64,000 nucleotides of DNA from Lanius collurio. Lineage: Eukaryota > Chordata > Aves > Passeriformes > Laniidae. Where the stretch lies: the NCBI GenBank assembly GCA_020086605.1, contig JACBWW010000008.1, positions 15,962,720 through 16,026,719 on the forward strand, in the 5' to 3' direction. Shown here one piece after another: positions 1,649 through 64,000 of this stretch. The position numbers and the translations under genes are program-made. Position 1 is the first letter of the stretch. The number at the start of each line of letters is the position of its first letter. The notes under the pieces were generated by a model. The model was not told where the DNA came from, did not search any database, and worked only from the letters and a program-made list of their open reading frames with translations.

Positions 1649-1696
1649 AGAAGATGAAGAACTCATTGCTCGCAGCTATCTTTTTAATTGTTAGAG
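1649..1696 (+). CDS. Receptor exon 1: end of 5' UTR, start codon and leader
   Basis: ATG at 1654 opens [14 protein letters not shown], a basic start followed by a hydrophobic core, as in a signal peptide. It is short for one. The exon ends at GAG|GTGAGT in phase 1. The sequence CTTTACAG just before 1649 looks like a splice acceptor, so a noncoding first exon probably lies upstream; if it is not an acceptor, the transcript may begin nearby. Confidence 0.72.
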
Positions 1697-4600
1697 GTGA
1701 GTTTTCATATACTGCGCAACTTGCTGCCGCTTACGAACAGTAAAAATTCTTAATGCTACTCAAGGATGAGGCTGTACCAACAAAATCATGACCGAATTAA
1801 ATTCTGCTCGTAAGAGAAGCAGCTACCAGCAATATTTTTCCTATTTCTTTCGCGATTGTCTTGATCAACAACTTTTGTTTTGTTTTGTTTTGTTTGTTTT
1901 GTTTTGTTTTGTTTTGTGCTGCCCAGACGCCTGCCGCTGCACAGACTGGGACTCTCCGTTCTGCCGGCAGCTGCCAGGTGGGTGGAACGCTCGGGCCCGG
2001 CGCGGTGCCCGCGCTCCCGCGGCCCCTCAGGGCTCCCGCGGCCCCTCAGGGCTCCCGCGGCCCCTCAGGGCTCCCGCGGCCCCTCAGGGCTCCCGCGGCC
2101 CCTCAGGGGTCCTGTCCGCCCCGGGCGCCGCCTGGCGGACGCCGCGCCCCGCTCCCGCCGGGACCCCCGCCGCTCGGAGGCCTCGCCCCAAAGGAAACGC
2201 CCGCCTTTCCCGAAGGGAAAATCCGGCCCGGGCGGCATGGGCAGGCGTGTCTGCGTGATGGCAGGGTGCGCGGGTTAACCCGCACGCCATGAGTGAAAGC
2301 CCACCCAGCGCGTCGCAAATAGCCGCCGTTTAAAAAGACCACGGACCTGTGGTGTTTATGTGTGACGGCTATGTGCTCTCCATTTAACTGAGAAATTACT
2401 GATGCTGGCGAGAAGGAGCAGTGCTACACATTTTAATAGCGAGTATTACAAAGCAGTGGGTGGTCATCTAATGTACTTTGTGCTGGATTTATTGTAGGCA
2501 GAAACATCTTGCTTGCTAACAAACACAGCAGAGATGACAGGTTCTTGAGTACACAGTGACACTGGGCAAGACATTTGCAGGAGGACTGTGTTTTTCTGAA
2601 ATTAGCCATGAATAATTTTCTAGTCATTGCAATTAACCTGCCAGACTGTGCTCCACTAAATCATTAGTGAGAACACCAGATGCACAGGAAAAAAAAAAAA
2701 ACCAAAGTTCTTGAGTGAAAAAAAATTAAAGGTGAGACTTTGTTTGTTGGTTTGGGAGGTCTTTTAGTAGAGAAAGTGAACTCTCTTTTCTTTAGAACAA
2801 AGACATTTTTTTCTTTCTTTGCATAGTGCTTGGTGCACAGTCATGATACAGCACTAGTACCATGCTAGGTCTGGGAAAAATTAATAATATACATGTTAAG
2901 CTGGAGCAGTACAATAAAACAAAGAAAGCAATAGAATAAAAATGAATGTGCATGCAGATACTGATATCCACAAACAGGACGAGTGAAAATGAAAGTGTGT
3001 AAGATTCATCATAATCATCTGGAGAAAGTAATGTAGAACTTCAGTATCCTGGGAGCAGGGTAAGGTATTGGGGTGTTAGTTGAGCTAATATACTATTTCC
3101 ACACATGAAATCTACTATTTTTCCTTGTCTGCTCTAATACCATAATCTCATAGAGAAAGACAGGGAGGGTTTGTAAAATTAAAACCTGAGGAACAATACA
3201 ACCTCTGTTCCTCTGTAAGCAAAGACAGGTCTGCAATATTTAGACATCACACGGATCTGAATTAATAGAACTGTTAGTTCACATAGTTTCAGGAGCAGTA
3301 TATTACCCATGTATTGACATGAAGTATTACAGTAGTTCCAAAAACCTTTTGTTTTCAGATGTTTCTTCAAAACAACAATAAACAAACACTAAGTAAGTGT
3401 AAGGTTTAATTCAGAGTAAAAAAGAGAAGAATGTGAGAGCTGTTGCTGTTTTCCCTGCTGTTGACAGACACCATGTTCATGGGTGAGGAGGCCAAGATGT
3501 GGTTTGGTGGCCAGACTAGAAAAGCAAAGAATTCTCTAATTTTTCACATTGCTACAGAAACAAAGAAGACATGATCTCCACCTTCCTGAGAGGAACCTGT
3601 ACACACCTGAACTGATGCAGCATAACTTTATTAGAAAAACATTATTTGTTCAATATGAGAAAAGAAGTGTCATAAGGTGAGGGTATTAAAGTCAGTGCTA
3701 TACTCATTTGACACACTTTTTTCCCCAAAAGATCTTTTAACTTGAACATGTATCTGTCATCTCAATGATGAAAAGACTGCAGAGGATACTTTGAAAGTCA
3801 GGTTGTAGGAAGAAATGAGGAAAAGAGAACTGATCTTTTATCTCATAACCTAGGTTATAAAACACCATAACTATGCTACAACACTAACTCCAGACATACA
3901 CATATTTACTTATCACATAGCAAAACATTTCTTATTCAAGATTGATAGGCCTATTGGCAACTTGTTAAACCTAACAGATATGAAGGACATGTGACTCTAC
4001 TCATTAGGAAAAATTCACCTTAAGCATCCCATGCCTGTTGAGATCCTTGTCTACTTTCCTGAACAATAACAACAACAAAAAAATCTGAATCCTTTTTGAA
4101 ATTCCTTTAGGTGGTACTTCGAAACACCATGACTGATTCTTCTGAACTAGTAGTTCAGACACAAATGACACAAAGCAAAAGAACAGTCATATTTTATCAT
4201 TACCATTTCTGATAAGACATTTTTGAAATACTGAGGTAAGCTTAACCGCTAAAGACAAAAAACAAGTTCCTTTGATAAAGTTATCAGTGTTTAATTTCAT
4301 GTCAGCTGAAAAAGGGACTGTTCAGATGCAAAATAAGCCCTATACTTCTCTTTAAAAAAATAATAGCAAGTAATTTAGTACATAAACTTATGCTCCTCCT
4401 GTTTTATAACATGGTCTTTATAGAGCTGGCAGCATGAAAGTAATATTGGTTTTATCCAGCAATAATGCATTGTTCAGATAGTAATGGCTGATGGGTTGGA
4501 GGCAATTCTGGGGTCTAGTCGACCAGTTCTAACCTGGTTTATATTTGGTTTCATTACTCATAGTCCCTTTGAGTCAGTTAATGGTTGCCTGTGATAGGTC

Positions 4601-7600
4601 TTTTCCAGTGCACATGTTTTCATCTTCCAGACTGGGACAATGACTTGGTGTGCTACAAAGAACTGAGTGAGGATCTAACCTGTACCTGGCTGCCCTTACC
4701 TAGTGCTCCAAATACAGTTAATTATACCATATATTTAAAATGGTAAGTCTGAAAAGTAATCTCAGAAAACAAAAAGCTCTTATTGCTCTAAGATGTGATT
4801 CCCATCTGCCAGAGTTTTGCTCCAGTGTATTTCATCACATTATAAGTTGTTACACAATGCTGGTTAATATCTTTCATCATTTCCAATCAATACCTCTTGA
4901 TTTGGGAGAGCTTGGTAAGAGAGTGGTAGGTTGATCTTGGCTAGATGTCACAATAGCTGTTCTATCTCTCCCCTCCTCAGCCCAACAGGGTGCAGAAAAT
5001 ATTAAAAAGGCTCATGGGTAGAGATAAGGACAGGAATAGATCACTCAGCAGTTACCGTCATGGGCAAAACAGACCTGACTTGGGAAAATGAATTTAATTT
5101 ATTAACATTCAAATCAGAGTAGAGTAATGAGAAATACAGCTAAAACTTGAAACATCTCCCTGCCTGCCCTCCCCCCCGCCCCGCTTTCTTTCTTACTGAG
5201 CTTAACTTTTCTCCTGAATTCTCTACCTCCTCTCCGCCAGCATTGTGGGTGGACAGGAAATGGGGTTGTGGTCCAGTCCATCACACGTTGTGTCTGTCAC
5301 TTCTTTCTCTTCTGATTCTTTTGCTGGTCCAGCATAGGGATCCTCCCACAGGAGGATGGGATCCTCCCATGACGAACTTCTCCAACATGAGTTCTTCCCA
5401 TTGGGCTGCAGTTCTTCATTAACTGCTCCAGTGTTAACCCTTCCCTCTGGTGCTGGCCCTTCAAGAACAGTCTGCTCCGTAGCAAGTCCCTCATGGGGTC
5501 ACAAGCCCTGCCAGCAAACCTGCTCCAGCGTGGACTCCTCTCTGCTGCTCTCACAGCTGTGCAGCTGTTGTGCAGCAGCTTTTCCCATCTTTAAAATACA
5601 TTATCCCAGAGGCACTACCACCATGGCTGATGGGCTCAGCCTTGGTCAGCAGCAGGTCTGTCCTGGAGGTAGCTAGAACTGGCTTTGTTGGACATGGTGA
5701 AAGCTTATTGCAGCTTCTCATAGAAGCCACCTCTATACCAAACTGCTCCCCTGCTCCCAAAACCCAATACAAAGTCATTATACATGTTACCATGCCTCCA
5801 ACACACTGTTTAGAATATTATTGCCAAAGATCAGCTTAATCAATTACCTTTATTAGCAACTATTGACTTCCACTGTCTATTCAACACAGATGCATTCAAT
5901 GTAAAAAAAAAGAATTAAAACAAAACACACAAACATAAACAGACACTTTAAGTTTTTATTTTATGTATTTTGTATTTTGCTATAGCATGTACCCAAGGAG
6001 ATGTCAGATGCTGGCATACCTTCTGGTAATTGTGAATTATCAAGTAGTGGTTTAACAGATGAAATGAACTTGTAGGGTTAATCTTGAATTGATTACCTCA
6101 AATACTGTGTCTTCAGTTGCAGCTGCAATACAAAATTCAATTGCCTCATTTTATATCTAGATGTTTGGAAACTCCTGTGAGATTAGGGGCATGTTCAGAA
6201 ACAGAGATGTGAGATCAGAAGCCATGATCTTTGCCATGAGACCATATCATGGGGTACATAGGGTACAGCACTGTGTGCCGTTGGTAAATTCTGATATTCA
6301 TTGCTGATTATTTTGCCGCAAACCACTCCTTGTCATTAAAAATGAGCTGTGGTTAGAAGCATCTCCTAAAGCTAAGAAAATGTCACTACACTGGGAAATT
6401 CCCCAGGGTGATCATCTTCATATTGCAGAGGAGCAAAGCAACCACCTCAAGGCTGAGCCTACTCCCCCCAACACCTTTGGTATGTTCTCACTGGAGGTAG
6501 CAGCAGGCACCAACTTGCAAGAAGCATCAAATCCCACTGCATTAGCCATCTTGCCTCTTGGGAAGTTAAAGAGTCACAATTTTTTGGAAGGGCAGAAACA
6601 TTTGTGAAACAGCTCTGTTTCTGTAGAGATGTTATCAGATAAAATACATGTAAGCTAGTTGCTCTCAAAATCCTAAGCCAAAACCAGAGTGTGCCGTTCC
6701 CAGGCTGCAGGGTTGATGTCACAAATAGACAAGGCAGAAAAAAAGAATGAAAGAGGAGGCCAGTGGGAGAAGAGGGAGAAAATTCCCTGGCAGAGATGCT
6801 GATTGTTCCAAGTTGGAGGAAAAAAAAAAAAAAAAAAAAAGCACACTTGAAAAGGCTTTTGTCTTGCCTAGAAGAGGGCATCACCCCTTCCTGCATGTAA
6901 CATCAGTTTGACGTTGTAATTGTTCCTTGTCCTTGCTCCTTATGATTTAGTTGTCAGGAAGAAAAAGATTAAAGATAAAACACTCCCACAGAAAAGTTCC
7001 AACCAAGAACTCAAAATCATGCTACAAAATTTTAATTGCTGATTCACACCTAGTCTGAAGCAGAAGACAAGAAAACCTTCAAGTAGTTTTTTTCAGTTAT
7101 TAAATATTGAATGTGCGTAATTTAATACTTGAAATGCATAGCAAGGTAATTAATATGTTAACCCATCTCTTTAAGGACATTGAACTTGCACAATTCTAAC
7201 CTTGGGAAAATTTTTCCTATGTGTGGCAGAGATTAAATGAGAGAGACAGGGAAAAAAATAGGCAGCAAAGTTGTATGTAAGGCATTAAAACTCTTGGAGT
7301 TCCTGTGTTGTGTGCATTAGATATACCAGGAGAAATCTACAGGGCTGAGGACTAAGGTGACATTTAATTATCTCTGTCAAACTCTGATGCTTTGCAGGAA
7401 CAGAAGTCAGAAGCCAGGCATATAACTCATAAGAGGTTTTTCATAACTTTATGGTAATTTAGATTCACGTAACTGGGAAATTATGTTGTTCAAAAGGAAT
7501 TTGTGTGCCCCTGAGATAGATGACAAGACTTTATGAAATAATTTCTAACCTAATTTTATACCTCCAAAATGCTCTATATATCCCACTGTAAGTACAAAAG

Positions 7601-10600
7601 AAGGTCATATGGATCTTGTTGTATCATGCTACAGCTTACAAGTTTAAGGAATTCAACAGTTCTCCACCACACAAGGCAAGGATTTGCATGTTTAAATTTG
7701 CTAGTTACTGGGGCACTGGAATTAATCTTGCTGTTTCAAGCTGCTCAAGGTGAACCTTCAAGTTTCCAGATGTGGAATTATGTGTAGAAGTATCTGGAAA
7801 GCTATCAATTGCTGTAAAGTCACTTTCTTGGACAGAGGAGGAACTATAATTCAATGAAATGTTTTTCATTCTGCTTCCTTTTCTCTGAAGGAACAAGATA
7901 CGAAAACTTTTTCAACGAAACACATCATTGCCTTTCATCACAATAGAACGAAAGAATCTCTACATTGAGAGATCTGCTTCCATTTGGATAGCAGTGAATT
8001 ATGCCCATGACACCTGTGCAAAAGGAAAGAACATTTCCGTTTTACCAAGCCAAGCAGGTACAACATCTTCACAAGTTGTGTTACTGCAGTGCTCAGCTAA
8101 AGCTGTAGTCTTTAAAGATTATTTCCAAAATTTCAGCTCCCAAAATACTCTCATTATTTTTACTGATTCAGAGACCTAAAATGCAGTTTGACTTCCTTAA
8201 ATAAAATTAGTAACAGAAGTCTGTCAGCTTTTACAGGAGGAGGGCTTTACTTAAAATATTTTGCTGTAATGTTTAATATTCATATCCAGAAAAATATATA
8301 GTAATATATGTGTACTTAACCAGCTTTCCGTGCTCTCTTTGATGGTTTTCTGAATTTCTTTACATTGTTTCACAAAGAGAGATTGACTCAACACTGTGCA
8401 CCTAAGGAATCCATGATATAGGGCATTAGAATTTTGAGAAACCTTTTCAAAATTCAGCTCTTCTCTAAAGCCATTTACCTATTACACAGTGCTACAAAGA
8501 AGATATGAAAAAAGCAGCCCTATTTACATCCCTTAAGATGTTTGTTTAAAGATTCTCTACCTATCTGGTCACTGAAATAATGTTAAAAGCTTCCCAAAAT
8601 TTCACCTGCTTAGCCTAATCATGTTCCAAGAAAAACCTATGTTTCCCACTGCTGGTGCTACAACCCAAATTACTGCTATGACCTTTACTGGACACTTTTG
8701 GCCACCTTGTGTTTATTGAAGAGAAAGATGAAAATATATTTGCACTTACTGAAATTTAAAGATATTCTGGATATTTTTAATTCATGATTACAGGTATTTT
8801 TGACATTTTGATTAGTAACTGCTTAGAAAAAAAATGTTCCTGAAATTAGTAGAAGCATTCACAAAAGAAAGGCAAGAGGAACAACTGTATTTTGCTGATA
8901 CCATAAAGATTTAGTAATTATTCATTTCTAGGGTTTTTTGAAGTCTTACAGTGTTCAGTATTGTGTGCCAAGTCTTTCAATTTTTAAAGACCACACTTGA
9001 CAGCCGTAATTACCAAAGCTTTCCTGCTTCTCTTACACTTTTAACAGCTGTATATCCCCCATTTTAGGAAAGTGCTTGTTACCATCTAACATAAGTGCTT
9101 ATCAGATCACAAACCAACTGATAATAAAGTGGGACCGGACCACAGCTCATACATCGTATGAGCTGAGATACAGAGAGGCAATCTCAGAAGCCACTCCATG
9201 GACACTGGTAAGTACTTCCAGATGAAGAGTCACAGGAGATCATAAGGTGCCTCAATATCTGCACATGATACATGCAGCACAAGGATTGCAAGGCAGCACA
9301 GCAAGGAGTCACTTGGTAGGTAGATCGCATTAAGCCACCTTAGTTTGGTTCTAACAAATAGTGAAATGTTTGGGAAAGAAGGAATTATAGTTTTAAACAG
9401 AGTAAAATATAACCGCATGTCATCAGGTTCATTAATGTACCAGTGAGATGCTACAACTATCAGTGATGCAAAAGCTAAGTATCAGAAATGCCATGCAAAC
9501 TCAGATCCAAATTGTACTGTCAGCAATTTACAATATTACTCTCTATCTGGTAACATTGCATTTTCAAATAGATTAGAGATCAGAGAGCTTTGTTTTTAAG
9601 GTAATAATTCATATCTTAAACACCTTTGGTTTGTGTCAATATTCCAGATTTTCTTCTTTGAAAAGGAGAGAAATAATTTCTCTGCAATACAGGTAGAGAA
9701 TCATGGAAATTTTTGTGTTGGAAGGGACCTTGAAGATCATCTAGTTCCAACCTGCCCTGCCATGTGCAGGACCACTCTCTACTAGACCAGGCTGCCCCAT
9801 TCAAACTGGCCTTGAACACACCCAGAAATGGAGCATCCACATCTTCCCTGGGCAACCTGTTTCCATGCCTCGTCACCCTAATAGTAAAGAATTTTTTTCC
9901 TAAAATCTGATCTAAACTTACTCTCTTTCAGGTTACAGCCATTACCCCTTGTCATGTCTTTATATGCTCTTGTAAATAGTCTTGCCCCATCTTTCCTGTA
10001 AGTTGTCTTCCAATACTGGAAGGCAACAATTAGGTCTCCCCAAAACCTTCTCTTTTCCAGACTGAACTGAAAGATTCTCCCCAGTTCTCTAAGCGTTTCC
10101 TCACAGGAGAAGTACTCCGTCCCACTGAACAATTTGGTTCCTTTGGATTCATTTCAACAGGTCCATGTCCTGCCTCTGCTGAGGACCCTGTCCCTAAAAA
10201 CTGGGAAATTCTCCATCAAATTTGTAGGTTAGAAAGTCAGCATTGCTTCATTAGCAGTGCTGAATGCATGGGTAATTCTCTTCAAAGCATGCATGCCCAG
10301 TAAGCTAAGAGACCAGGTTATATTCCTGAAACTATGGTATTTCCTGAATACATGCATATATGCTAATTATTTCCACTTGTTTGGATATGGTTCCAGATCT
10401 TCTGACGAATCTTTTCTCCTTGGGTGTATCTCAAATATGTCATCAGGTCATGATGTACTTCTCTTATCATTCTTTGCTCTGACGCACAATCCTTGCTCTC
10501 AAAACTGAGATATTAGTTAGTACATATTAATCACTGATAGAAGTAAACAAGAAAGCATTAGTTGGAACAAGTTTATTTGTCACAGATGTAGGGAGTTAGC

Positions 10601-25600: not shown

Positions 25601-28600
25601 GTGAAGAAGTACACTTGACAGGTTGGAGAGAAGGGCAGAGAATAGTCAGAAATTCAGCAAAGGCAAATGCCAGGCCCTGCCCCTGGGGAGAACAATCCCA
25701 GGCACCAGCACAGGCTGGGGCTGACCTGCTGGGGGGCAGCTCTGCAGAGAAGGACCTGCGGGTCCCGGTGGACAACAAGCTGTCCATGAGCCAGCAGAGT
25801 GTCCTGGTGGCCAAGAAGGCCAATGGTATCCTGGGGGACATTAGGAAGAACATTGCCAGCAGGTCATGGAAGGTGATCCTGCCCCTGTACTCAGCTCTGG
25901 TGAGGCCTCGCCTGGAATGCTCTGTCCAGTTCTGGGCTCCTCAGGACAAGAGAGACATGGAGCTCCTGGAGCGGGTCCCGTGAAGGGTTGCAAAGGTGTT
26001 AAGGGAACTGTAGCACCTTACTAATGGGGAAAGACTGAGGGAGCTGGGCCTTTTTATCCTGGAGTAGAGGCAACAGAGAGGGGATCTTATCAATGTATAC
26101 AAACACACTAAAGGCAAGTGTCAGGATGATGGGGCCAGACTCTTTTCTGTGGTGCCCAATGACATAACAAGAGGCAATGATCATAAACTGAGATATAGGG
26201 ATTTCCACCTGAACACGAGGAAGAACTTCTTTACAGTGAGGGTGATGGAGCACAGGAACAGACTGGCCAGAGAGTCTTCTTCCCTAGAGATATTCAAAAC
26301 CTGCCTGGATGCCATCCTGTATCATCTGCTCCAGGTGAATCTGCTTTAGCAAGGGGTTAGAACAGGTGATCTTCAGAGATCCCTTCTAATCCCAATCATT
26401 CTGTGACTCTATGATACCTAGATATCGTAAGAATACAAACCTGAAAAGTTCACACTCTCTTGAAAATACCAGGTCTAGTTTTAACTAGATTTTACTTAAA
26501 TTCCAGAACAAGCATAAAGTTGGCTTTGACTTCTGTTTGACATATTTCTCTCATGAAGTTAATAAGGCCTTTCTGTACTTAACATCATAAATCTAATTCA
26601 GTCTTTCTGTTTCCCATTAGATAAAGGAGAATTTGAAGGTTTTGTGATTGGCCTTTGTTTCAGCATGATACTCATTCTGGTTTTTGTACCTCTCACTTGT
26701 TCTCTAGTGCTTAAAAGGTAAGAAGAGAATATTGGCTGGAATTGTTAGCAGCACTCTTGTTTTGCTTAGCTCTGGGTTTCATAACACTGAGCCTTTTTTG
26801 TCATTAAAGGCAACACAACTCAAAAAACACACAACATAAAAGCCACCACACTCATTTCACAGTTAAGAGAAATTACAGGCCACTATATGCTGTTAAAATA
26901 GTAAAAAGAGTTTGTCAAAAATCTATAATCTTTAGCTTTTGATTCCATTATCTAACTAACTCCTGTCACAAACACCCTCAGAAAGAGCCAGGACCATTTC
27001 TCACAGTGGGAAATATGCTCTATATGTAGGTAAAGCATGCCTGTGATCATTTTTATCTAACATGTTTCTTGCAAACACATTTGGATATTAAATGTATAAA
27101 GTATGCATATAAGCACATAATGAGAAGGAGTAATATATGAATAAGTAGGAACAAGAGAGAATAACAAAGGTGCCTGTAAGATCTGAAAGTGGCCCTCTTA
27201 TTTTAGGAGAAATTGTTTTCTGAAATAATAAAGTATTTACCCCCACATAATAATCTGAGGCACAATATTGAGGCATACACTACGACTTAAAGAAAATGGT
27301 TTGCATAGTAATGGATTCTAATATTAATTTTTTTACAAACTTAATTGCATTCAGCCACTCATGTTACTATTTGGTGTCCTAGAACACTACCCTCCCTTTT
27401 TTCCCTCTTCACACAGCACCAGCCTCAGAAGCTGAAAGCACAGCTGCTAAAGGACAGATGGCGCAACCTGTGGCTTGAAAACCATGAAAGCCACAGTGTG
27501 ACATAGCCTGCTTTAGCTAAAACTCCTGTCCTTGCCTCTGGGAAACATACTCTCCATGAAGCCTCCTGTGCTCTTAACCTTTTCAGATTGTACTTTGAGT
27601 TGCACTGTGTCTGATACAGCAGTTTTAACAAGAACTTCTGAGACCTAGTTTTGACCTAGAGCAAACTTCATTGTGTTAAACATAAGACCACACTTCATTG
27701 TCCGTGCCCAATAGGAAAGAATAGGGGAAAAAAACCTACAAAACAAACAGGCAGCACACAGGAACCCAGCATAGCACTCAAATAGTGCTTAAATTTGTAA
27801 ATTTGTGGTAATATTGAACATTTTTAACTGAGATTAAGGGTGCCAGCAATACCCTCATCTCAATTCCCTTCTTGAATTGTAAAAAAGGAGCCCGCTATCC
27901 AGCCAAACACCCATCTTCACAAGATCAGCAAGAGATTCAGTAATTTTATAGCCACATTCTTCACCTCAAACCACAGCCTAAGCAGAGGCAAAGTATGCTA
28001 AAGCTAATGAAATCTAGCTTTAATTTCAGAACTGAAAAATATTGAAGCCAACAACACTAAGGCTTCGTGAACTACTTAAACTGTCAACCTCTCTTACAGC
28101 TGCGTTGAGAGGTTTTTCTATGGAGGTGAGATGCTGCATGTAAAACTTCCAGAACGAGCCAAACGCCAAACAATTTGGAGAGAGCAGGAGCTGTGCTGTC
28201 CCCTTACAGCTTCTTCCAGATCGCCAGTGCCATTGCACACGGGCTGAATGCAGCAGAGTGTTGCTCTTTGTTTTTAAGGGAAAGGAAGCCCAGGGGCAAA
28301 TATTGAAACAAACCTTTTCCTATTTGTCCCAAAGTCCTCAAGGAAGATGGAAGTTTTTTGGAAATTATAATGAATTAGATGTATAGATATATTAGCTGTA
28401 TAGATTAAATGTATAGAAAGAGACAATATTGCCAGCACTTTCACAGCTCCTTTGTCATTGAACAAAGATGTTAATCATCATTAACTCAGCATTTCAGTGT
28501 AGACTACCAAGTTTGTTCATCAGCTTCTAATTAGCATTATGCTTAAAAGTCTCTGTAGAACATCTTTTTTTGATGGCCGCAAAAATATTAATATGTTATA

Positions 28601-31600
28601 TATGAACAGTAATTAATTTAAATGCATAGGAAATGTCAGTCATTTAACCTGATGATAAATTTACAATACTTCTTTACAGGCTGAAAATAGCATACTGGCC
28701 CAGTGTACCAAGCCCAAGACACAGCAGTGCACTCCAAGATATGGCAAGTACTCTTCTGATTGCATGAAAAAATACACAGGGGAGATCTTTGATTAATCTA
28801 TAATGCTAGTCATTTGTTCTTTCACACTTCACTCTAGAAAAGGTCTAATATCAGCAGCTGGGAAGCCAGAGTAATATTCAAAATACAGGATAGGGAATGG
28901 TTGTTTTTTAGGCATAGGCTTTATACACTTCTAAATTTAATAAAGGTCTTGTGTAGGGTCTGACAAGCCCCTGTCCTGGCAGGAAGCCCTCATTAGATAA
29001 AGGAGACTGCACAATCTCCAGATGTGGGGTCTGACAAGCCCTTGCCCTGGCAGGAAGGCCTGGAGATAAGGAGGTTGCACAATTTCCTGCAGGCTCCTCT
29101 TTGAAAGTCAGTATGTCTTTGGTTACAGCGAGAGAAGACAGACCCATGTTCCTCTGGGAAACCATATGTAAATTCCCTTAATACCCATTGGCCTTTCACC
29201 CTTTCACACCCACCTCTGTACCCCCATAAAAGAGACCCCTCTATCCCATATTTGGGGGAGGATCTGTCTCTGGTCACCCTTCGAGGAAGATGGAAGAATA
29301 AAGCTGCTTCTGCGGAACCACCAGAAGGACCTCTCCTCTCTCTATCCGGGCCTGGCCAGGGGGGTTTGCCTTGCAGAGCAGAGCTGAAATCACTCCCTGA
29401 ATCACTAAGAGCTGATGGCTGCTGAGCCAGGCACCTCTGCAGGCACCCCAGGCCAAGGGCTGAGAGAAGCCACGACCCCCTGGGAGACGGTTCCTCACGG
29501 GATCACCTCTGAGGGCCTGCTACGGCTTCTTGGGTCTGAGCCTCAGACCCCAGCCAGCACCGGCCGACCCCTGGCATTAGTCTCAGACTTTTCTGAGTAC
29601 ACTATAGAGCATTTTTAAAAGCATGGTTCTTAAAAAAACAAATCAAAGCTGAATGGGGGTAGATGAGAGAAATTCAATGTTCACATCCAGTCAGTTTTCA
29701 CCAACTCAAACTGATTATTAAGTTCAAGTTATTCAGAATACAAAGTAATGAATTGTGGCCTAATTCCAGAGAAGTCTCATGACAGAGGCCATGTGACAGG
29801 GTGTTTTCTGAAGTCTGCTCCTCACTCCTCAGTCCCAGCTTGCCCCCAAAGCAATCCAGGGGCTCTGGCTGGCAGCTGATAGCTGCCTAAGGAGCACCTA
29901 CTGGTCAACAGGCACCAAGGTTCAGCACCATGCTCACATCTTGCCCACAGCTTTCTCATATGTTTTGATAAGTATACCTGAATTCCAGCATTAAAAAAGC
30001 AGCAAGAGCAGCTGTTAAGAAAAAATAAAGCTGTTAGAAGCAGCTGCTGGAGACCACATTTTCCACCTTTGCCTATTAGTAGACTTAGTAGTATCTTTGC
30101 CTTCTTGCCTTCCCCCTTTTAATAAGATTTCTGCTGCAGTTTTGGTGACATCTAATACTAAAAGATCTCATCTTAGAACACGTACGTTTATCTTTTAAGT
30201 CTCAGACCACCTACCACTGTGTTTTTGGAGCAAGGACTAGTACTGTTTCCCTTCTTAAATCTCTTTTTCTCTAGAAGACCTGAACTTAATTTGGCACTTG
30301 TCCATCTAGTAGTTTCTCTCATGATCTTTAACAAGCAGATTTCTATCTAGTCAAATTTCAGGCATTGGCTAGTAAGCATCCACAGGCCAGACACTGGCCA
30401 AAACTGGGATACAGAGTGAAGTAATCAGAAACAAAATTTCAGAAGACCCTGATAGTCTGCTGGTAATGAAAAGTTTTGCTGAATATCAGCATTGCTTCCT
30501 GAGACACAGCAAATATGGATTTTCATATTCCAGGTCAAAACTTCCTCACTTTCTTTCTTCCTTTCTTCCACCTAAATGTAGATAAAGAAGTGATGAGTTC
30601 AGAGCTATTATGAGGTCATCATTTTGCAACAAAGAATTGCAAGTGAAATACACAGAGGCTGCATGCTACAGAAAGGACAAATAGGTTTTGTGAACCACAG
30701 TGCCACTTCAACATAAAATGTTTAAAAGCAAAATATATAAATTTAAAATGCCTTTAACTTCTACTTCAGAGACAAAGCAACTAAGAAAATGAAGTCTGTG
30801 TTAATCACACCTGCTAAAGAATACTGTTATGTTGATAACAGATGCAGAAATGCCAGATACCAGATAATGGTTTGGGAGAGCACAGTAAAAGCACTATGTC
30901 AGGAGACAGTACAATAAACAGGTTACCAGATACATTGTCAAGAAGTAATTTGGTATTCTAAACAATTAATGAACTGTGGAGAAAGTTATTCCCCAAATGG
31001 GCACTGGAAAACAGAGGCAGGGAGCAAATCTTGCTTCATTCTGTACGTTTATTCCATCAGGTTACAAGAGAAAAATGCTGATATAGTATTGGAAAAATAT
31101 CTGATGTGGTATCGCTGAGATTTCAAAGAGCAGCATTCTTATTTCCCAGTCAGATCACAAATTGTAAGAAAGAAATAAAAAACAGTACACATGTACTTAT
31201 TTCTTTCAAAATTATTTAGGGGGGGAGGGAGGGAGAGGGAAAGAAAAAATCTAATAGCTATGCCAACTTGCCCATAATTTAAAAAACATTATGGCAAATG
31301 TGGCAAACCCAGAACAATCTAAGTAGAAAATAAAAAAACTTGGTGTTACCACCTGTTCTTCATTTAACCATCCAGAATTTGCAAAAACTTGTTACCCCAG
31401 GTATACTCAGATCACAACATGGCATGAAGTTTAATAACAAACTGTTTGCAGCAGCTGACAGCTTAATCTTGTCTGGCTGCTGTTCAAGTTGCTGCCTTTG
31501 TATAGTAACATATTTGCTAAATTCTTTGAAAGCTGTTGTTCTCAGAACAGCACATCACGAGACTTGCATTTTATCATCACTGCTTTTGGTCCCAAGTAAA

Positions 31601-34600
31601 CATAAAAGCAAGAAAAACTTTGCTTAAATACTGCGGGACAGGAGAAGAGGATCCTCTAAATTAGGGAAATAAGTATTTTCATTCATATTTCTAAAATCAA
31701 AAATTAGATAAATTAATTAATTAGCATATTATTCTTTTTCCTTGCTTTGTCTCACAGACTAACTGGAAACCTGTTTCAAAGTCACTGCTTCAGGCCCTTT
31801 CAGACAATGATACCACCAGCCTTTTTGTCATAGACCATGAGTCAAAGGCTCCTCTGATGCTAGACCTCTTCACAGATGGTGGGCAAGGCAGCAAGCATGA
31901 CACTTGCCAGTCAGAAACTCCTAGCAATGACACCAACATGAGCCTGAGTCATGAAGAAATCCCTGCAGAAGCAGTTACAAGTGAAGAAGACATCATTTCC
32001 ATTGAAGTTCCTCTACTGAGTGACTATGCCAGCATGGAGTTCAGCCACAAAGCCCTAATGAGTCTGACAGTGAGCATGCCTGAAAGAGCTGCTCACCCTG
32101 ACCCAGAAATGGAACTAAGCAGTAAGCAAGCACAAACTGTGCATAAGGTTTTGTTTGCTTCCCAGGACTACCTCAAACAAAGCCAGGTAGTACTTTTGCC
32201 ATCTGGACCAACTTTCATGGGACAAATCAATTAAAATTAAAGCATCTTCATAATTTTCCTTACCATAAAATCAAGTTCTTACACTTCTGACACCTCAGTG
32301 GAGGCACTAGGACCAAATAAGACACTGAGCTTGTGACAGTTATCTTCCCTACAGTAAGTTTCCTTGGTGAAATAGGTTGATTATATGATTAGATTAACTA
32401 TTTCATCTCAGTCGTTCAGGAAAGCCCTACCATTTTCACACAGGAAAAACTTTCAGGGAATCATCTGAAAAATCTTTCAGTAAAGTACCTCTTGCTTATT
32501 ATTTTGTTCTAGGGCACTCAAGAGCCATTCAAGGCTTCCACTCTAAGCACAATATCCTTGTACATATCAGGAGAATTCTCTATTCACTATGATCAACTTA
32601 AGATCTGATTTTCAGATCTCATAAGTTTTTCAGCAAAAAAATTTCACCTAAAGTATCTACCACTTCAAAGAAGCTCTCCAGCTGATCAAAGCTGGACAAA
32701 GAAATTATTCCAACTCTTTCAAATTAGGAATAAAAAATTATGTGTACTGGTCTATGTAAAACACCATTAGTGCTTTACATCCTAGAACTTTACAGCTTTA
32801 TTTATTTTACATAAATAGCACTGTGTAAGTGAAGACGATAATAAGTTTCATTAACAGTATTGGAATTGTTACTTACATTAATTAAGGTCATTTCCTCCTA
32901 CAATTAACCTAAACATAGAGAAAAAACCCCATCCGTATTCTGTGATGAGGTGTAGCTGCAGGTATGTTTTCACACTGCATGGAATGACAATAACTGTAAC
33001 ACAGACTTCAGGAGATGAACAGATAGTTCTGTTAGCCATCCCGCCAAACACTGCATGGAAGAGGAGCCACTGGATACGGGGATAAAAGAGTGTTCCTCAA
33101 TATGCTTTCTATGAGACTCCATCAGGTATCTCCACAATGCAAGGAGTCCGAACCTTTTTCTACCTCACAAGATTTTCTCAGTCATGAACTCTGCAGGCAT
33201 TAATGGTCTGCCATTATTGTACAAAACCCAGTTTATTGCTGTTGTCTCAAGTTTAAGGAGCATTTTATTAGAATTGCTTTGTGGAGAAAGAAATTGGTCA
33301 ACTCTACCATAAGCACCAGAGAATCCATAGATGGACATTTGTTAAAATTCTCTCATTAAAAGTGAAGGACAATTGACATTCACACAAATATTTCCATTCA
33401 TCCTTGGCAGTATGAATTATAGAACAGACATGCTTGCAAAAACTCAGAGAAATTCCTAGTCCCCCACTTCACTGATTTAGTGAGAATCCATAACAAAACC
33501 TGGTTTATTCATTTTCCGTATTTATATTCACTCTCTCTTTAACTACATCTGTTTATATCTGTTCAGACTATTAGGAACGAACCTGTATTTCACTGAGGGT
33601 TATGCACTCTTTTTCTTCTTAGCACTCAAAATCCACTGTTACCCCACAAAGCAATATGCACTCACAGTTGTTAAACCTCGTAATTGAAACAAGGGGTGAG
33701 AAGAGCACTCCCCAGAGATCACACAAGTTTGGGGAATCTTTTAAATATCTTTCTTCTTTTTTTTAAACTTTAATCTGGTCACCTCACCTGATTTGAATTT
33801 AAGAGAATGCAAATGATCCTGCTATTAGTGCAGTTGTTTTTACTTGTAATATCTAGTAGTGCTGTTGAAAAGCTGTTCCAGACAATGAAGTCCTGATATA
33901 CAATCATTATCAAGTAGTCATAATTTGTCCATTTCCAAAATATAATGATATGATACTTACAGTATTTCTTTCATTTCTGGTCAAAGAAACTTATTTTCCT
34001 GGTGCACTTTGTACCTTCAATAGCTTTACTCATCCTTGTAAACAATGAATTCTTCTTTTCTTACTCTGCACCTACCAAACCAATACATATTATTCTGTTA
34101 TGGATAAAGTATGTAAAAAGTAAGTAAGGAGAACCAAACTAAAGGCTTGCAAGCAGTTTCAGTATATGAAACAGGCTTATACATGAAACTCAATGGACAG
34201 CTTGGACTTTTACCCTGGTGATTATTAACTCCACTGTACTAGCCATTGTCTGACATCTTGCTAAAAAAAAATTGTATAACAGGACAGGAGAATTGTACTA
34301 GAAGCACCCATGGATATTAAATAGAAGAGATAGATCTATTCTACTTTCAGTTATAAAGCTCACAATATATGTAATTCTTAACTGATCTCATTAAAGCAAT
34401 ATTTGTACAATATCTGTAAACAGTACATTTGGGAGAATAAGAGATATATGAAAAATCCTGGTGTGGAGATTAGATATAAATTAAGAACTCATCCCATCAT
34501 GATGTATCCTTTGAGAGCAAATAAAGAACCTTTCATATGGAGACAAATAGAAGAGTACACTTGCTAAATAGTTTCATGCAGCTGAAAAGGAGTCTTAGTT

Positions 34601-35452
34601 CAAATAATGTACTTACTCAGGGACACAGGATTAGGAGATACACTACCTTTCTGTGGTATTTTTTTGTTGGCTCTTCTATGGAGATTTTTAGTTCAGTTGG
34701 AAGGGTCCTACAATAGTCATCTAGTACTCCCTGCCTTCTTCAGGCAGTTTAAAGAAATATGTGCATATACTGGTGTACAGTGACTGCAGAAGCCTTCCCC
34801 TACAAATAAACATGTAAGGTAGTTCATTCCATAGTACTGTTCAAGCGGTTTGTGTAGTGTTCTTAGCTTCAATATCTTTAGCTTCTGGGGATGTTATGCT
34901 GAGTGAAATTGCAGATATGAAGGCTCAGGACCACAAAAGGCAAGATATTTTATAATTAAATTTTTGCTTTCTATTCACATTCAGCATAGCTCTGGGTGAT
35001 CTGGATGATCATTAGTGAGAGTTCAGACATGGTAAAAGCTTAGACAACTGTAGGCCTGGAGGCACTTCAGCACATCACATCAGCATATGCACATCAGCAT
35101 AGTGATTTATAGCATGGGATATTATACTGGAAGGTTAGAGGGCTGTAGCATTCTGTATCTACAGAGAAAGGAATGTAATAATACTCAGACTAATACAGCA
35201 CAAAGCTAATATAGCACAAAGTTAGGTTAGTATTTTTTTTCTGGTATCCAGAGTAGATGTTTTTTCTTGCATGGAGATGAGATTTTAAATTTTTTTTTTA
35301 TTATATTTTTTATGTAGTGCCTAAAGGCAGACTACAGCGCAGTAGTTAGCACTGAAAATTCCCACAGTGTGTCAGAGACAAAACAAACAAGTGTTCATCC
35401 TGGAGCAGGAGATTGCAGCAACCACAATATTGTAGAGGTTGACTCAGTATAG
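1654..35452 (+). CDS. Type I cytokine receptor with five FN3 domains, IL-12Rbeta1-like (15 coding exons)
   Basis: The coding exons are 1654-1696, 4631-4742, 7891-8057, 9068-9207, 14305-14446, 14608-14690, 15745-15955, 18035-18193, 19247-19372, 20396-20548, 23516-23659, 26621-26717, 28680-28743, 31758-32186 and 35318-35452. Joined, they keep one open frame of 734 residues. All introns are GT-AG except the one after 28743, which is GC-AG. The layout is leader (1-14), D1 (15-107, C22/C32 pair and CTW), D2 (108-201, degenerate WSxWS), D3 (202-299), D4 (300-394), D5 (395-493), membrane span (about 501-524), Box1 WPSVPSP (532-538), and a tail with Y637, Y685 (YLKQ) and Y696. There are 13 N-glycosylation sequons outside the membrane. 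In this family Box1 binds a JAK kinase. D1, D4 (GTN...W...DW) and the order of domains look most like IL-12Rbeta1, while D5 (VPxxGP) also resembles IL-31RA. Membership of the family is secure; the exact orthology is inferred. Confidence 0.86.
1873..1917 (+). repeat. (TTTTG)n microsatellite
   Basis: A run of TTTTG/TTTG units directly adjoins the left edge of the GC-rich island. Confidence 0.9.
1918..2345. promoter_or_regulatory. GC-rich, CpG-dense island in receptor intron 1
   Basis: The composition jumps from AT-rich to strongly GC-rich with many CG dinucleotides (GCGCGGTGCCCGCG, GACGCCGCGCCC), then falls back after about 2345. It starts roughly 220 bases after the leader exon. CpG islands usually mark promoters, so it may drive this gene, or a gene running left on the minus strand. 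Overlapping ORFs in several frames reflect base composition only. Confidence 0.6.
2013..2107. repeat. 19-bp tandem repeat, five copies
   Basis: Five perfect or near-perfect copies of GCTCCCGCGGCCCCTCAGG stand head to tail, each with a CCGCGG palindrome. With no spacers between units it is a minisatellite, not a CRISPR array. Confidence 0.93.
2346..4630. other. Rest of receptor intron 1
   Basis: AT-rich intronic sequence with short A runs. I see no exon and no transposon that I can name. Confidence 0.45.
4631..4742 (+). CDS. Receptor exon 2: first half of FN3 domain D1
   Basis: The exon follows CATCTTCCAG and ends before GTAAGT in phase 2. It encodes the signature start of a cytokine-receptor module: [14 protein letters not shown], with C22 and C32 able to form the conserved first disulfide and W34 after it. 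An N-Y-T sequon follows. IL-12Rbeta1 has the same C-(9 residues)-C-x-W layout in D1. Confidence 0.88.
4930..5800. mobile_element. Solo LTR of a songbird endogenous retrovirus (copy A)
   Basis: The stretch has the features of a common passerine LTR family: GGGCAAAACAGAC, then repeated CTGCTCCAG and TCCTCCCA phrases, then CTTCTCATAGAAGCCACC and AACCCAATACA near the end. Copy B at 21933-23293 shares these in the same order. There is no viral coding region. The ORFs in it are not genes. Edges are approximate. Confidence 0.75.
5840..7890. other. Rest of receptor intron 2
   Basis: AT-rich intron. A 22-base A run ends at 6840. No recognisable exon or element otherwise. Confidence 0.4.
7891..8057 (+). 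CDS. Receptor exon 3: second half of D1
   Basis: The exon sits between TTCTCTGAAG and GTACAA and runs from phase 2 to phase 1. It encodes residues 52-107, including the strand [13 protein letters not shown] and sequons NTS and NIS. Only one cysteine (C94) is present, so the usual second D1 disulfide cannot form within this domain. Confidence 0.85.
9068..9207 (+). CDS. Receptor exon 4: first half of FN3 domain D2
   Basis: The exon follows CCATTTTAG and ends before GTAAGT in phase 0. It encodes residues 108-154, including LIIKWDR and YELRYRE, the usual B and C strand patterns of a cytokine-binding FN3 domain. Confidence 0.88.
9690..10205 (-). mobile_element. CR1 LINE fragment, 3' end, antisense to the receptor
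   Basis: The plus strand reads AGAATCATGGAAAT...TTGGAAGGGACCTTGAAGAT, the reverse complement of the CR1 3' end, and continues through CACCCAGAAATGGAGCATCC and CCTTGTCATGTC. It is moderately diverged. Confidence 0.88.
10745..11345 (-). mobile_element. CR1 LINE fragment, further 5', antisense
   Basis: The stretch from AACCCCAGAGCTGGATGCAG to CATCAAATCCATC matches the part of CR1 that would directly follow the fragment at 9690-10205. The two are separated by about 540 bases of non-CR1 sequence. Its ORFs are remnants of the CR1 reverse-transcriptase frame read backwards or by chance. Confidence 0.85.
11346..13687. other. Middle of receptor intron 4
   Basis: AT-rich intron with no element that I can name. 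Only short T runs and a TTAATTAATTAACTTATTAATTAG-type AT palindrome near 13253-13275 stand out. Confidence 0.4.
13692..14007 (+). mobile_element. Solo LTR with 4-bp target duplication (copy 1)
   Basis: The element starts TGTGTTGCGG and ends GTGAGCA, with TCAA directly before (13688-13691) and after (14008-14011). It has a TATA-like GATAAAA (13848-13854) and AATAAA (13937-13942), as an LTR should in this orientation. A close relative is at 19486. The element lies about 300 bases upstream of exon 5. Confidence 0.83.
14305..14446 (+). CDS. Receptor exon 5: second half of D2 with degenerate WSxWS
   Basis: The exon follows CTTTTTTAG and ends before GTAAGT in phase 1. It encodes residues 155-201: the F strand SSYIVQLRC, then NCVCIWSKE, where VCIWS (190-194) replaces the WSxWS box. 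C181, C189 and C191 are three cysteines in a short stretch. Confidence 0.88.
14608..14690 (+). CDS. Receptor exon 6: first part of FN3 domain D3
   Basis: The exon follows TTTACCAG and ends at GGGAG|GTAAGG in phase 0. It encodes the D2-D3 linker and the first strands of D3, with an N-A-T sequon and VLLKWE as the B-strand tryptophan. Confidence 0.85.
15745..15955 (+). CDS. Receptor exon 7: rest of D3
   Basis: The exon follows CTTGCTAG and ends at ACAG|GTATTT in phase 1. It encodes residues 230-299, including GYLVNVERI and [16 protein letters not shown], the typical F-G strand of an FN3 domain. Sequons are NRT, NLS and NIS. The match to the YNVAVISSNQFG region of human IL-12Rbeta1 is by eye. 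Confidence 0.88.
16983..17425 (-). mobile_element. CR1 LINE fragment, antisense
   Basis: The plus strand starts CAGAATCATAGAATCAACTAG and runs through GACTCCACCATCTCCCTTGG and GCCTCCTTTCTCCAGGCTAA, the reverse complement of a CR1 3' end. The last part repeats an ACCACAGCTCCCT phrase. Confidence 0.88.
18035..18193 (+). CDS. Receptor exon 8: first half of FN3 domain D4
   Basis: The exon follows TTGTTCACAG and ends at CTAG|GTAACA in phase 1. It encodes residues 300-352. The pattern GTNAVVTW...CFVVDW parallels GTNGTTMYW...YCIEW of human IL-12Rbeta1, which is the best single clue to the family branch. Confidence 0.88.
19247..19372 (+). CDS. Receptor exon 9: second half of D4
   Basis: The exon follows GTTTTCCAG and ends at GGAG|GTATTC in phase 1. 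It encodes residues 353-394, with [14 protein letters not shown], the F strand seen in D4 of IL-31RA, gp130 and the IL-12 receptors. C371 and C373 form a C-x-C pair. Confidence 0.87.
19486..19795 (+). mobile_element. Solo LTR (copy 2, related to 13692-14007)
   Basis: It shares CAAGCAGCCC.GGCTCTGATG, GTGGTTGGTTGTTT and GACAGAGGGAATAAATGACT with copy 1, in order and spacing. AATAAA is at 19722-19727. I see no clean target duplication, so the right edge is approximate. It follows exon 9 by about 110 bases. Confidence 0.8.
20396..20548 (+). CDS. Receptor exon 10: first half of FN3 domain D5
   Basis: The acceptor is TTTTTTAAG ending at 20395. Phase and homology choose it over the AG at 20401-20402, because it yields EGVPRTGP across the junction, matching VPSEGP in IL-31RA. 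It encodes AVVKWTEI and GYRISYTD and ends before GTAAGT in phase 1. Confidence 0.86.
20549..21932. other. First part of receptor intron 10
   Basis: AT-rich intron with no named element, ending where solo LTR copy B begins. Confidence 0.4.
21933..23293. mobile_element. Solo LTR of a songbird endogenous retrovirus (copy B), split by a 275-bp insert
   Basis: The element begins TGTGATGGTTTACCCTGG and shows the same GGGCAAAACAGAC, CTGCTCCAG and TTCATCACAGATTGT phrases as copy A. It stops being LTR at 22526, resumes at 22802 with GGCCTCCCACAG, and ends around CCAAAACCTGGCC. The inserted piece is a copy of intron sequence found at 24299-24573. There is no viral gene. Confidence 0.78.
22527..22801 (+). 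repeat. 275-bp direct duplication, copy 1 (inside the LTR)
   Basis: The stretch from CATCAGTTAAACTAAAACT to AAATCAACAGGA is repeated at 24299-24573 at equal length, with about three substitutions by eye. The copies are 1,772 bases apart, on either side of exon 11. Confidence 0.95.
23516..23659 (+). CDS. Receptor exon 11: second half of D5
   Basis: The exon follows TATTTCAG and ends at ATATG|GTACTG in phase 1. It encodes residues 446-493 with [20 protein letters not shown], a classic FN3 E-F strand. The exon lies between a solo LTR on its left and the second copy of a 275-bp duplication on its right. Confidence 0.88.
24299..24573 (+). repeat. 275-bp direct duplication, copy 2 (in intron 11)
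   Basis: This is the partner of 22527-22801. Its flanks are ordinary intron, which makes it the likelier source. It has no terminal inverted repeats, target duplications or poly-A end. Confidence 0.95.
25395..25490. repeat. A/C-rich low-complexity stretch
   Basis: CCAACCAAAACCAACC-type units and A runs. The opposite-strand ORF across it (25250-25513) is hydrophobic only because T/G-rich DNA encodes Leu, Phe, Val and Trp. Confidence 0.7.
25560..26416 (+). mobile_element. CR1 LINE, 3' end with reverse-transcriptase remnant
   Basis: A 145-codon frame (25546-25983) carries [18 protein letters not shown] and [18 protein letters not shown], the C-terminal part of the CR1 polyprotein, followed by CR1 3' sequence ending TCTGTGACTCTATGATA. 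It is sense to the receptor, in intron 11, about 200 bases before the membrane-span exon. Confidence 0.93.
26621..26717 (+). CDS. Receptor exon 12: membrane span
   Basis: The exon follows TTCCCATTAG and ends at AAAAG|GTAAGA in phase 2. It encodes residues 494-526: a short acidic stalk (DKGEFEG), about 24 hydrophobic residues, then the stop-transfer LKR. This fixes the protein as a single-pass type I receptor. Confidence 0.9.
26718..28679. other. Receptor intron 12
   Basis: AT-rich intron. No recognisable exon or element. Confidence 0.4.
28680..28743 (+). CDS. Receptor exon 13: Box1 motif, with GC donor
   Basis: The exon follows CTTTACAG. It encodes [20 protein letters not shown]. Box1 (aromatic-P-x-x-P-x-P) is the JAK docking site in this family, and human IL-12Rbeta1 has a similar CPPLPTP...SSAIEF. 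The exon ends at ATG|GCAAGTA, a GC donor. Reading on would reach TGA within 24 bases. Confidence 0.84.
28950..29590 (+). mobile_element. Solo LTR of another endogenous retrovirus, with duplicated U3 segment
   Basis: The stretch has the order of an LTR: a GGGTCTGACAAGCCC unit near 28956 repeated near 29028, then TATA-like CATAAAAG (29225-29232), then AATAAA (29297-29302), then a GC-rich segment. It starts about 210 bases after the Box1 exon. No retroviral gene accompanies it. Edges are approximate. Confidence 0.68.
29640..31757. other. Rest of receptor intron 13
   Basis: AT-rich intron with a purine-rich GGGGGGAGGGAGGGAGAGGG run at 31219-31238. No exon seen. Confidence 0.4.
31758..32186 (+). 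CDS. Receptor exon 14: main cytoplasmic tail
   Basis: The exon follows TGTCTCACAG and ends at GCCAG|GTAGTA in phase 0, encoding residues 548-690. The tail is acidic and carries Y637 (DYASM) and Y685 (DYLKQ), the second fitting the STAT3-type YxxQ pattern. If the donor is skipped, the frame continues 15 residues to TAA at 32232-32234, giving a 705-residue alternative form. Confidence 0.85.
32187..35317. other. Receptor intron 14, or 3' UTR of the short form
   Basis: If exon 14 reads through, this becomes coding to 32234 and then 3' UTR, with AATAAA near 32729 as a possible end. A short stretch at about 34690-34740 (GTTGGAAGGGTCCTACAATA) may be an old CR1 3' tip. Nothing else is recognisable. 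Confidence 0.4.
35318..35452 (+). CDS. Receptor exon 15: C-terminal tail and stop
   Basis: A pyrimidine-rich tract and TTATGTAG precede 35318. The exon is in phase with exon 14 and stays open for 44 codons, starting [15 protein letters not shown] and ending VEVDSV before TAG. Y696 lies in DYSAV. No ORF-length criterion would reveal it. Support is the in-phase junction, the strong acceptor and a polar, receptor-tail-like composition; a missed small exon before it cannot be excluded. Confidence 0.68.
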   Translation, partial: CLKADYSAVVSTENSHSVSETKQTSVHPGAGDCSNHNIVEVDSV

Positions 35453-48537: not shown

Positions 48538-48690
48538 TTAAACCTCTTCCATTTTAATTGAGAGGTTTTCTTCATTTGGTTGACAGTTCCCGTTCTGTTG
48601 TAGCTTGACTTCATCTGTCCTTTGTGTATCTCTATTGTCTACTTCCTTGTCAGTCTCTGCATTCTGATCTTCTTTATTGGTATCTTTGTC
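48538..48690 (-). CDS. SREK1: SREK1 last coding exon and stop
   Basis: The exon follows TCTTTGGTAG. It encodes 50 residues ending NEENLSIKMEEV before TAA at 48540-48538. The human protein ends with a closely similar NEENLSTKTEAV. The start of the segment is acidic (DKDTNKEDQNAETDKEVD). Confidence 0.95.
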   Translation of the reverse strand, partial: DKDTNKEDQNAETDKEVDNRDTQRTDEVKLQQNGNCQPNEENLSIKMEEV

Positions 48691-63293: not shown

Positions 63294-64000
63294 CTAGAAA
63301 GAGTTGAAGAGCTCAGCTGAAGTAAAATATACAATGAAAACCACTAATCTAATATATTCGGTAGTCTTAGAGCTACAGATTTTGGAATGATAGCTCAACA
63401 TTATTACAAAGGATACGTGAATTTGGTAACATTACATTTTAAGACATAAAGACATGCATTTTTTCTTCCATTAAATTAAGAATATTCTACAATTTTAAAC
63501 AGTGCAGGCACAAGCCCTTAGTCCTTCACCTAGGTAAAAAAAGGACTTTACATAGGGCTTTGCATTTTTCAGACAACTAATCTGAAATAACTGATAACAA
63601 ATTTCCTTATACATCTGTTTCCAAGCTACTAATCGTGACTTTTGATCAATTAAAAGAATCCAAACAATATTAAAGGATGTAGATTTATGTGGCTTTCTAC
63701 TAGCTTCCAGTTTGCTTCACTTTATCACAGTCAATAAGACTTTTACACACAGTAGCTATTTCAGCAGTCAAAAATCCCATAATGTAATATCTAAATTGCT
63801 ATCTGTCAAAAGCAAATATTTTTCAGTTAATCTGATCACCTCTTGAAAAACCAAGCTGCTGACTGAAAGATATTTATGCTAATTTTGCAACTTTCAGTAG
63901 GATACATCATTTCATCTTATTCTATCTACACAACTGCACTGTGCTCTGGGGGACAGCTACCACAATCTCACGACTTCTGAGGATTGCTCATCTAATACAA
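63294..64000. other. SREK1 intron running off the right edge
   Basis: The exon holding the start of the RRM (the VYVGNLN strand in human SREK1) is not found here, so this is all intron up to the window end. Confidence 0.5.

Follow-up and report, generated by a model that had tools for sequence, protein, structure and literature searches.

Which cytokine receptor lies beside SREK1 in the genome of Lanius collurio? The stretch of DNA analysed here, 64,000 nucleotides in length (hereafter the window; C8:15962720-16026719 in the coordinates of the bird's own genome), carries a receptor gene at a place, the SREK1-MAST4 interval, where the human map is not known to have one. In a preliminary description made from the letters of the DNA alone, the gene was read as most like IL-12Rbeta1, and was proposed to be either a second receptor of that type or the bird IL12RB1 itself.

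Gene model of the receptor

The receptor gene occupies positions 1654-32234 of the plus strand of the window, where 15 coding exons form an intact spliced open frame of 722 residues. The parts encoded are a signal peptide, five FN3 domains, one membrane helix, box 1 and a 181-residue tail. Both the homology and the fold of the FN3 cytokine-binding module are those of a class I cytokine receptor, and the window gene is an intact member of that class. An N-terminal Ig domain is absent, and five FN3 domains with one membrane helix and box 1 are the architecture of the IL12RB1 subfamily. The gene had been described before as an intact 15-exon, five-FN3 receptor on the plus strand from 1654, with 734 residues ending at 35452. 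That outline and the start were retained, but exon 2 had been overlooked and the final exon was wrong, so that the corrected protein has 722 residues and ends at 32234, still with 15 coding exons. The former last exon (35318..35452, plus strand) lies outside the gene and was rejected, together with the 734-residue model, as it found no match in any of the 27 rows of alignment A1. There is no splice at 32186; instead, exon 15 continues to the TAA at 32234, giving a C-terminal peptide as in the relatives in A1. At 90% identity along 94% of the length, the match of the first model to a Corvus protein excludes chance.

All exons lie on the plus strand. Exon 1 (1654..1696) carries the start codon and signal peptide and agrees with the relatives in A1, and exon 2 (1927..1977) encodes an N-terminal Cys-containing stretch, with AG/GT borders, a fitting phase and a peptide that likewise agrees with the relatives. 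In the cytokine-binding module, domain D1 is encoded by exons 3-4 (4631-4742 and 7891-8057; span 4631..8057), a region in which the Pfam model IL6Ra-bind matched below cut-off (residues 19-54 of the first, 734-residue model); D2, with VCIWS in place of WSXWS, is encoded by exons 5-6 (9068-9207 and 14305-14446; span 9068..14446). The three remaining FN3 domains follow in pairs of exons: D3 in exons 7-8 (14608-14690 and 15745-15955; span 14608..15955), D4 in exons 9-10 (18035-18193 and 19247-19372; span 18035..19372), and D5 in exons 11-12 (20396-20548 and 23516-23659; span 20396..23659). Pfam alone gave four FN3 stretches, and the fifth domain was obtained from the alignment and the model. Exon 13 (26621..26717) encodes the transmembrane segment (residues about 518-541), which is supported by a membrane helix at 513-547 in the Corvus structure model. 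Exon 14 (28680..28743) contains box 1 (YWPSVPSP) and ends at a GC donor, the intron from 28744 starting with GC (gcaagt) rather than GT. Exon 15 (31758..32234) encodes the cytoplasmic tail and the stop codon, including a YASM motif (YxxM; 32025..32036, tyrosine residue 654) and a YLKQ motif (YxxQ; 32169..32180, tyrosine residue 702). A codon-plus-splice scan yielded four candidate exons, none of them a correct receptor exon; one used the acceptor of exon 2 at 1927, in another frame and with another donor.

Several other features were observed in and around the gene. The segment 1900-2400, covering exon 2 and intron 2, is CpG-rich, the DNA upstream of it, in which exon 1 is found, is AT-rich, and a GC-rich 19-base unit is repeated in tandem (5.3 copies) at 2013-2112. 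Two intronic copies (13758-13885 and 19550-19677) are 84% identical over 128 nt and may belong to a dispersed repeat. Exon 12, the second half of D5, is flanked by direct repeats of 275 nt (22527-22801 and 24299-24573) that are 99% identical and 1772 bases apart; this pair may stem from a recent duplication or from the assembly, and could give rise to deletion of exon 12. An Rfam scan of the window at gathering thresholds gave no matches.

Neighbouring genes and the bird's own IL12RB1

To the right of the receptor, tblastn with a human SREK1 sequence located SREK1 on the minus strand (48541..63353), with the RRM at 63353-63087 and the C-terminal part at 48690-48541; the exons thus run from 63353 down to 48541, tail-to-tail with the receptor as had been described. 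Short imperfect tandem repeats cluster at 55610-56032 within the SREK1 span, and are perhaps a coding part of SREK1 rich in Lys, Glu and Arg.

On the left, MAST4 had been predicted on the minus strand, with the receptor head-to-head to it, and this is what the contig contains. A MAST kinase query identified the MAST4 kinase exons at C8:15616466-15626149 (minus strand), and a MAST4 N-terminal query extended the exons out to C8:15825121, about 137.6 kb from the window. When the 80 kb left of the window (5353 bases of it N) were searched by tblastn, the first exon of MAST4 was not found. The receptor faces MAST4 head-to-head; a further gene may lie between them, the sequence read covering the nearest 80 kb of the ~137.6 kb. 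Beyond MAST4, PIK3R1 lies at C8:15238538-15288971, also on the minus strand.

The preliminary description had also called for a search for a second gene next to MAST3 in the same species, and one is present. Human IL12RB1 gave seven matches in the bird's own genome, the third of which (contig C88, E 0.115) led to a compact IL12RB1 gene at C88:1167672 to 1164121 on the minus strand; the best of the seven, an FN3 exon similar to that of a LAR-type phosphatase, was rejected as IL12RB1. The bird IL12RB1 model comprises 14 exons and 575 residues up to box 1, is 28% identical to human IL12RB1 and keeps WSDWS; its exon borders were set by eye, with one GC donor. Below C88:1164121, its tail seemingly has one tyrosine, in YRRQ (YxxQ), in contrast to the human tail, as read by eye with a provisional last exon border. 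This gene precedes, and is head-to-head with, a second MAST gene (exons from C88:1183245, plus strand; MAST3 by neighbourhood), which is followed by a second PIK3R gene (C88:1203889-1213887, plus strand). The names MAST3, MAST2, PIK3R2 and PIK3R3 were assigned by neighbourhood and by the human map.

Because contig C88 carries a separate IL12RB1, placed head-to-head with a MAST gene, the window gene is not the bird IL12RB1 itself, and of the two proposals made before, the second IL-12Rbeta1-type receptor is the one upheld. The order on C8 is PIK3R1(-), MAST4(-), window gene(+), SREK1(-); when read backwards, C88 gives PIK3R(-), MAST(-), IL12RB1(+), which is the same order and orientation. The neighbours of the two receptor genes are thus paralogues in matching arrangement, as in a pair of ohnologues.

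Placement among the receptors and alternative origins

Raw similarity and phylogeny gave different answers to the question of kinship. Among human and mouse receptor chains, the best gp130 (IL6ST) chain scored 107 bits and the human IL12RB1 chain 23 bits; against human receptors, the window protein scored 115 bits with gp130, 80 with IL31RA and 53 with IL12RB1, to which it is about 20% identical. The earlier reading that the protein is most like IL-12Rbeta1 therefore fails by raw score, where gp130 is best among human and mouse receptors, and holds by tree. In the reverse direction, human IL12RB1 as query scored 92 bits with the coelacanth member of the window-gene family, 73 with the gator and 56-61 with six other sauropsid rows. 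Its best score among the other human receptors was IL31RA (51), followed by gp130 (38), so that eight of 10 family rows scored higher; the two frog rows (42 and 44 bits) fell under IL31RA. By plain BLAST, bird IL12RB1 scored 163 bits with human IL12RB1 and 56-97 with 11 family rows, eight of which exceeded IL31RA (65.9), while the window protein (65.5), Engystomops (60.8) and the softshell turtle (55.8) were below it.

Structure comparisons were mixed. By Foldseek TM normalised to target length, mouse IL12RB1 (0.59) and human IL12RB1 (0.44) exceeded gp130 chains of at least 390 residues (0.26-0.30), making IL12RB1 the best whole-ectodomain match. VIA-align Z gave no separation of IL12RB1 from gp130, and for the Xenopus member against solved structures, titin and gp130 were at the top and IL12RB1 was absent among the best 60 of 102.

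IL12RB1 and the family were grouped in every tree built. The joining branch received 97/97 in a 17-row tree; in trees lacking bird IL12RB1 it received 96/95, with 88/81 for D3-D5 only, 95/91 for D1-D2 only, and 99/97 when IL27RA and LIFR were omitted. Mammalian IL12RB1 rows form long branches, and inclusion of the bird's own IL12RB1 shortened the long IL12RB1 branch and sharpened the result. In the final tree (21 rows, 470 columns, bird IL12RB1 included), IL12RB1 and the family were joined at 99/99, bird, human and mouse IL12RB1 formed a clade at 100/99, and the family itself was recovered at 98/95. The window gene thus groups with IL12RB1, all other gp130-group receptors sampled staying outside, and is not placed firmly inside IL31RA or IL6ST, the outcome that would have spoken against the preliminary description. 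It falls outside the bird-human-mouse IL12RB1 clade, as its MAST4/PIK3R1 locus also differs. CSF3R, LIFR, IL12RB2 and IL27RA, which belong to the same receptor group and have a similar FN3 plan, all lie outside the joined branch; LIFR and IL12RB2+IL27RA were ruled out as home of the gene by tree tests, run on the tree without bird IL12RB1 only.

All six alternatives were rejected at 5% by AU tests on the 21-row tree. These were a duplication in the bird lineage (p 5e-7), the grouping of IL12RB1 with the sauropsid rows (p 2.3e-4) or with the tetrapod rows (p 0.023), and the grouping of the family with IL31RA (p 0.0105), with gp130 (p 0.007) or with gp130+IL31RA+CSF3R (p 0.0104). In earlier trees without bird IL12RB1, the last of these groupings had given p 0.058 and 0.065, while gp130 and IL31RA as home of the gene were rejected there as well. 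In raw similarity gp130 outscores every other human and mouse receptor, and it too has YxxQ motifs; it differs by an extra N-terminal Ig domain.

Three other origins were weighed. The gene could be an IL12RB1 paralogue whose duplication was later or segmental and not part of the early vertebrate genome duplications, a reading that the tree leaves some room for, as its sampling goes down to the coelacanth, the deepest member found. We consider it unlikely, as the MAST and PIK3R neighbours were duplicated together in the same order and orientation, and as the family predates the parting of coelacanth and tetrapods (98/95; AU p 0.023) in a tree sampled from these two groups. Still less probable is orthology of the gene with IL31RA, or an origin as a relocated tandem copy of IL6ST/IL31RA. 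Many records name it IL31RA-like or IL6RB-like, its raw BLAST scores with human gp130 and IL31RA exceed that with human IL12RB1, and IL31RA is on the same contig; moreover, five FN3 domains, a box 1 of the form WPxVPxP and tail tyrosines are shared with IL31RA, including a similar tail motif, YLKQ here versus YLKN in the human protein. This bird, however, has its own IL31RA at C8:19810665-19830413, 3.8 Mb from the window gene and beside a probable IL6ST (C8:19776550-19784308). The IL31RA was found in eight pieces (two of them weak) that together reach from residue 3 to residue 711 of a query of 713 residues, and human IL31RA was the best scorer in all four pieces fetched, in one narrowly over gp130. 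Neither the locus of the window gene, between MAST4 and SREK1, nor its grouping is that of IL31RA. That the gene is the true avian IL12RB1, relocated and without a second copy, is hardly credible: it does group with IL12RB1 in all trees built, but the C88 gene, with its WSDWS and its MAST neighbour, joins human and mouse IL12RB1 at 100/99, and an annotated chicken IL12RB1 has been measured in papers, PMC12243254 and PMC10627459 both reporting its expression.

The window gene is not IL12RB1, IL31RA or gp130. Given the separate IL12RB1 and the own IL31RA in the same genome, together with the collinear blocks, we conclude with high confidence that it is the ohnologue of IL12RB1 that remained in the MAST4-PIK3R1 block after a block duplication, probably in early vertebrates; its product would be a self-signalling chain of the beta-1 type. 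An ancestral MAST-PIK3R-receptor block would have been duplicated, with IL12RB1 as the copy in the MAST3-PIK3R2 block and the window gene as the copy in the MAST4-PIK3R1 block.

Distribution, tail motifs and possible function

Among about 5.8 billion proteins searched, 80 matches were listed which, by source name, comprised at least 57 birds, six turtles, two crocodilians, nine squamates, two frogs, two coelacanth entries and two nameless entries. No mammal was named among these best 80 matches; as the weakest scored 276 bits, an orthologue from mammals would be expected in the list at the similarity of the frog and coelacanth proteins, if enough short words were shared. A 387-residue coelacanth query gave eight proteins (one coelacanth, seven birds) and no further group, and a C-terminal query from human IL12RB1 gave 15 proteins, of which four were named, all as mammals, and 11 were nameless, none being named as bird. 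Judged from these protein sequences, the gene is retained in sauropsids (birds, turtles, crocodilians and squamates), frogs and the coelacanth, a range wider than the birds in which retention had been proposed. It appears to have been lost in mammals, as suggested by the protein search and the presumed human map. Source names among the matches listed conflict, including IL6RB-like (IL-6 receptor beta-like), IL31RA-like, LIFR-like, CSF3R-like and sidekick-2-like. Within the open-licence PMC literature, we found no paper treating the gene as an IL12RB1 paralogue. The abstract and sections 3.1 and 3.5 of a study of the IL-12 family across 405 species (PMC12162339) do not describe a second beta-1 gene, and passages of PMC6238376, which presents a tree of class 1 group 2 receptors, name neither IL-12Rbeta1 nor the window gene.

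Conservation of motifs was counted in A1 over the rows filled at each site. Box 1 (P.P) was present in all 26 filled rows. Tyrosine 654 was found in 25 of 26, with YxxM in 18, and tyrosine 702 in 20 of 23, with YxxQ in 18, the coelacanth included. In both frog rows a different residue occupies position +3 of the tyrosine 702 motif, and YxxQ was found in none of the five squamate rows (three without the tyrosine, two without letters at the site). Canonical WSXWS occurred in 0 of 26 filled rows, Cys replacing the first Ser in every one; since bird IL12RB1 keeps WSDWS, this change belongs to the window-gene family. WSXWS is usual, not universal, in class I cytokine receptors, and growth hormone receptor also departs from it; the changed motif was accordingly not counted against membership in the class.

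The 181-residue tail with YxxM and YxxQ contrasts with that of human IL12RB1, which has 92 residues and is not known to contain a tyrosine. YxxQ is the docking motif for STAT3, and YxxM is suited to PI3K p85 and also, on the example of IL-7R, to STAT5. On the strength of the tail tyrosine motifs kept, the receptor is presumed able to signal, and this beta-1-type chain probably does so itself, unlike human IL12RB1. Its product would be a cell-surface receptor chain in which the D1-D2 elbow may bind a helical cytokine or the p40/EBI3-like partner of one, the D3-D5 stalk would position the membrane segment, and box 1 would hold a kinase of the JAK family. Pairing with a second chain, induced by ligand, would then lead to phosphorylation of the tail tyrosines, which could recruit STAT3 (YxxQ) and STAT5 or PI3K p85 (YxxM). 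Kinship is what prompts the guess of a p40- or EBI3-type partner. We propose tentatively, and as a wider reading that we hold to be somewhat less probable than its opposite, that a second receptor of the IL-12Rbeta1 type, signalling itself via STAT3 and PI3K/STAT5 and serving its own heterodimeric (p40- or EBI3-type) cytokine, persists in birds, reptiles, frogs and the coelacanth, and that the whole axis was lost by mammals.

IL-12/IL-23 signalling shapes vertebrate defence against intracellular microbes, and mammal-based maps of it assume a single beta-1 chain. With a second such chain in poultry, wild birds, reptiles and frogs, the IL-12-family biology of these animals would have to be reread, and expression studies in birds may report the gene under wrong labels, such as IL31RA or gp130. 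The pair offers a clear two-copy case for the roles of beta-1 receptors before the mammalian reduction, with tail tyrosines kept here and absent from human IL12RB1, and it raises a testable question, namely which avian cytokine is bound by the receptor of the window gene.
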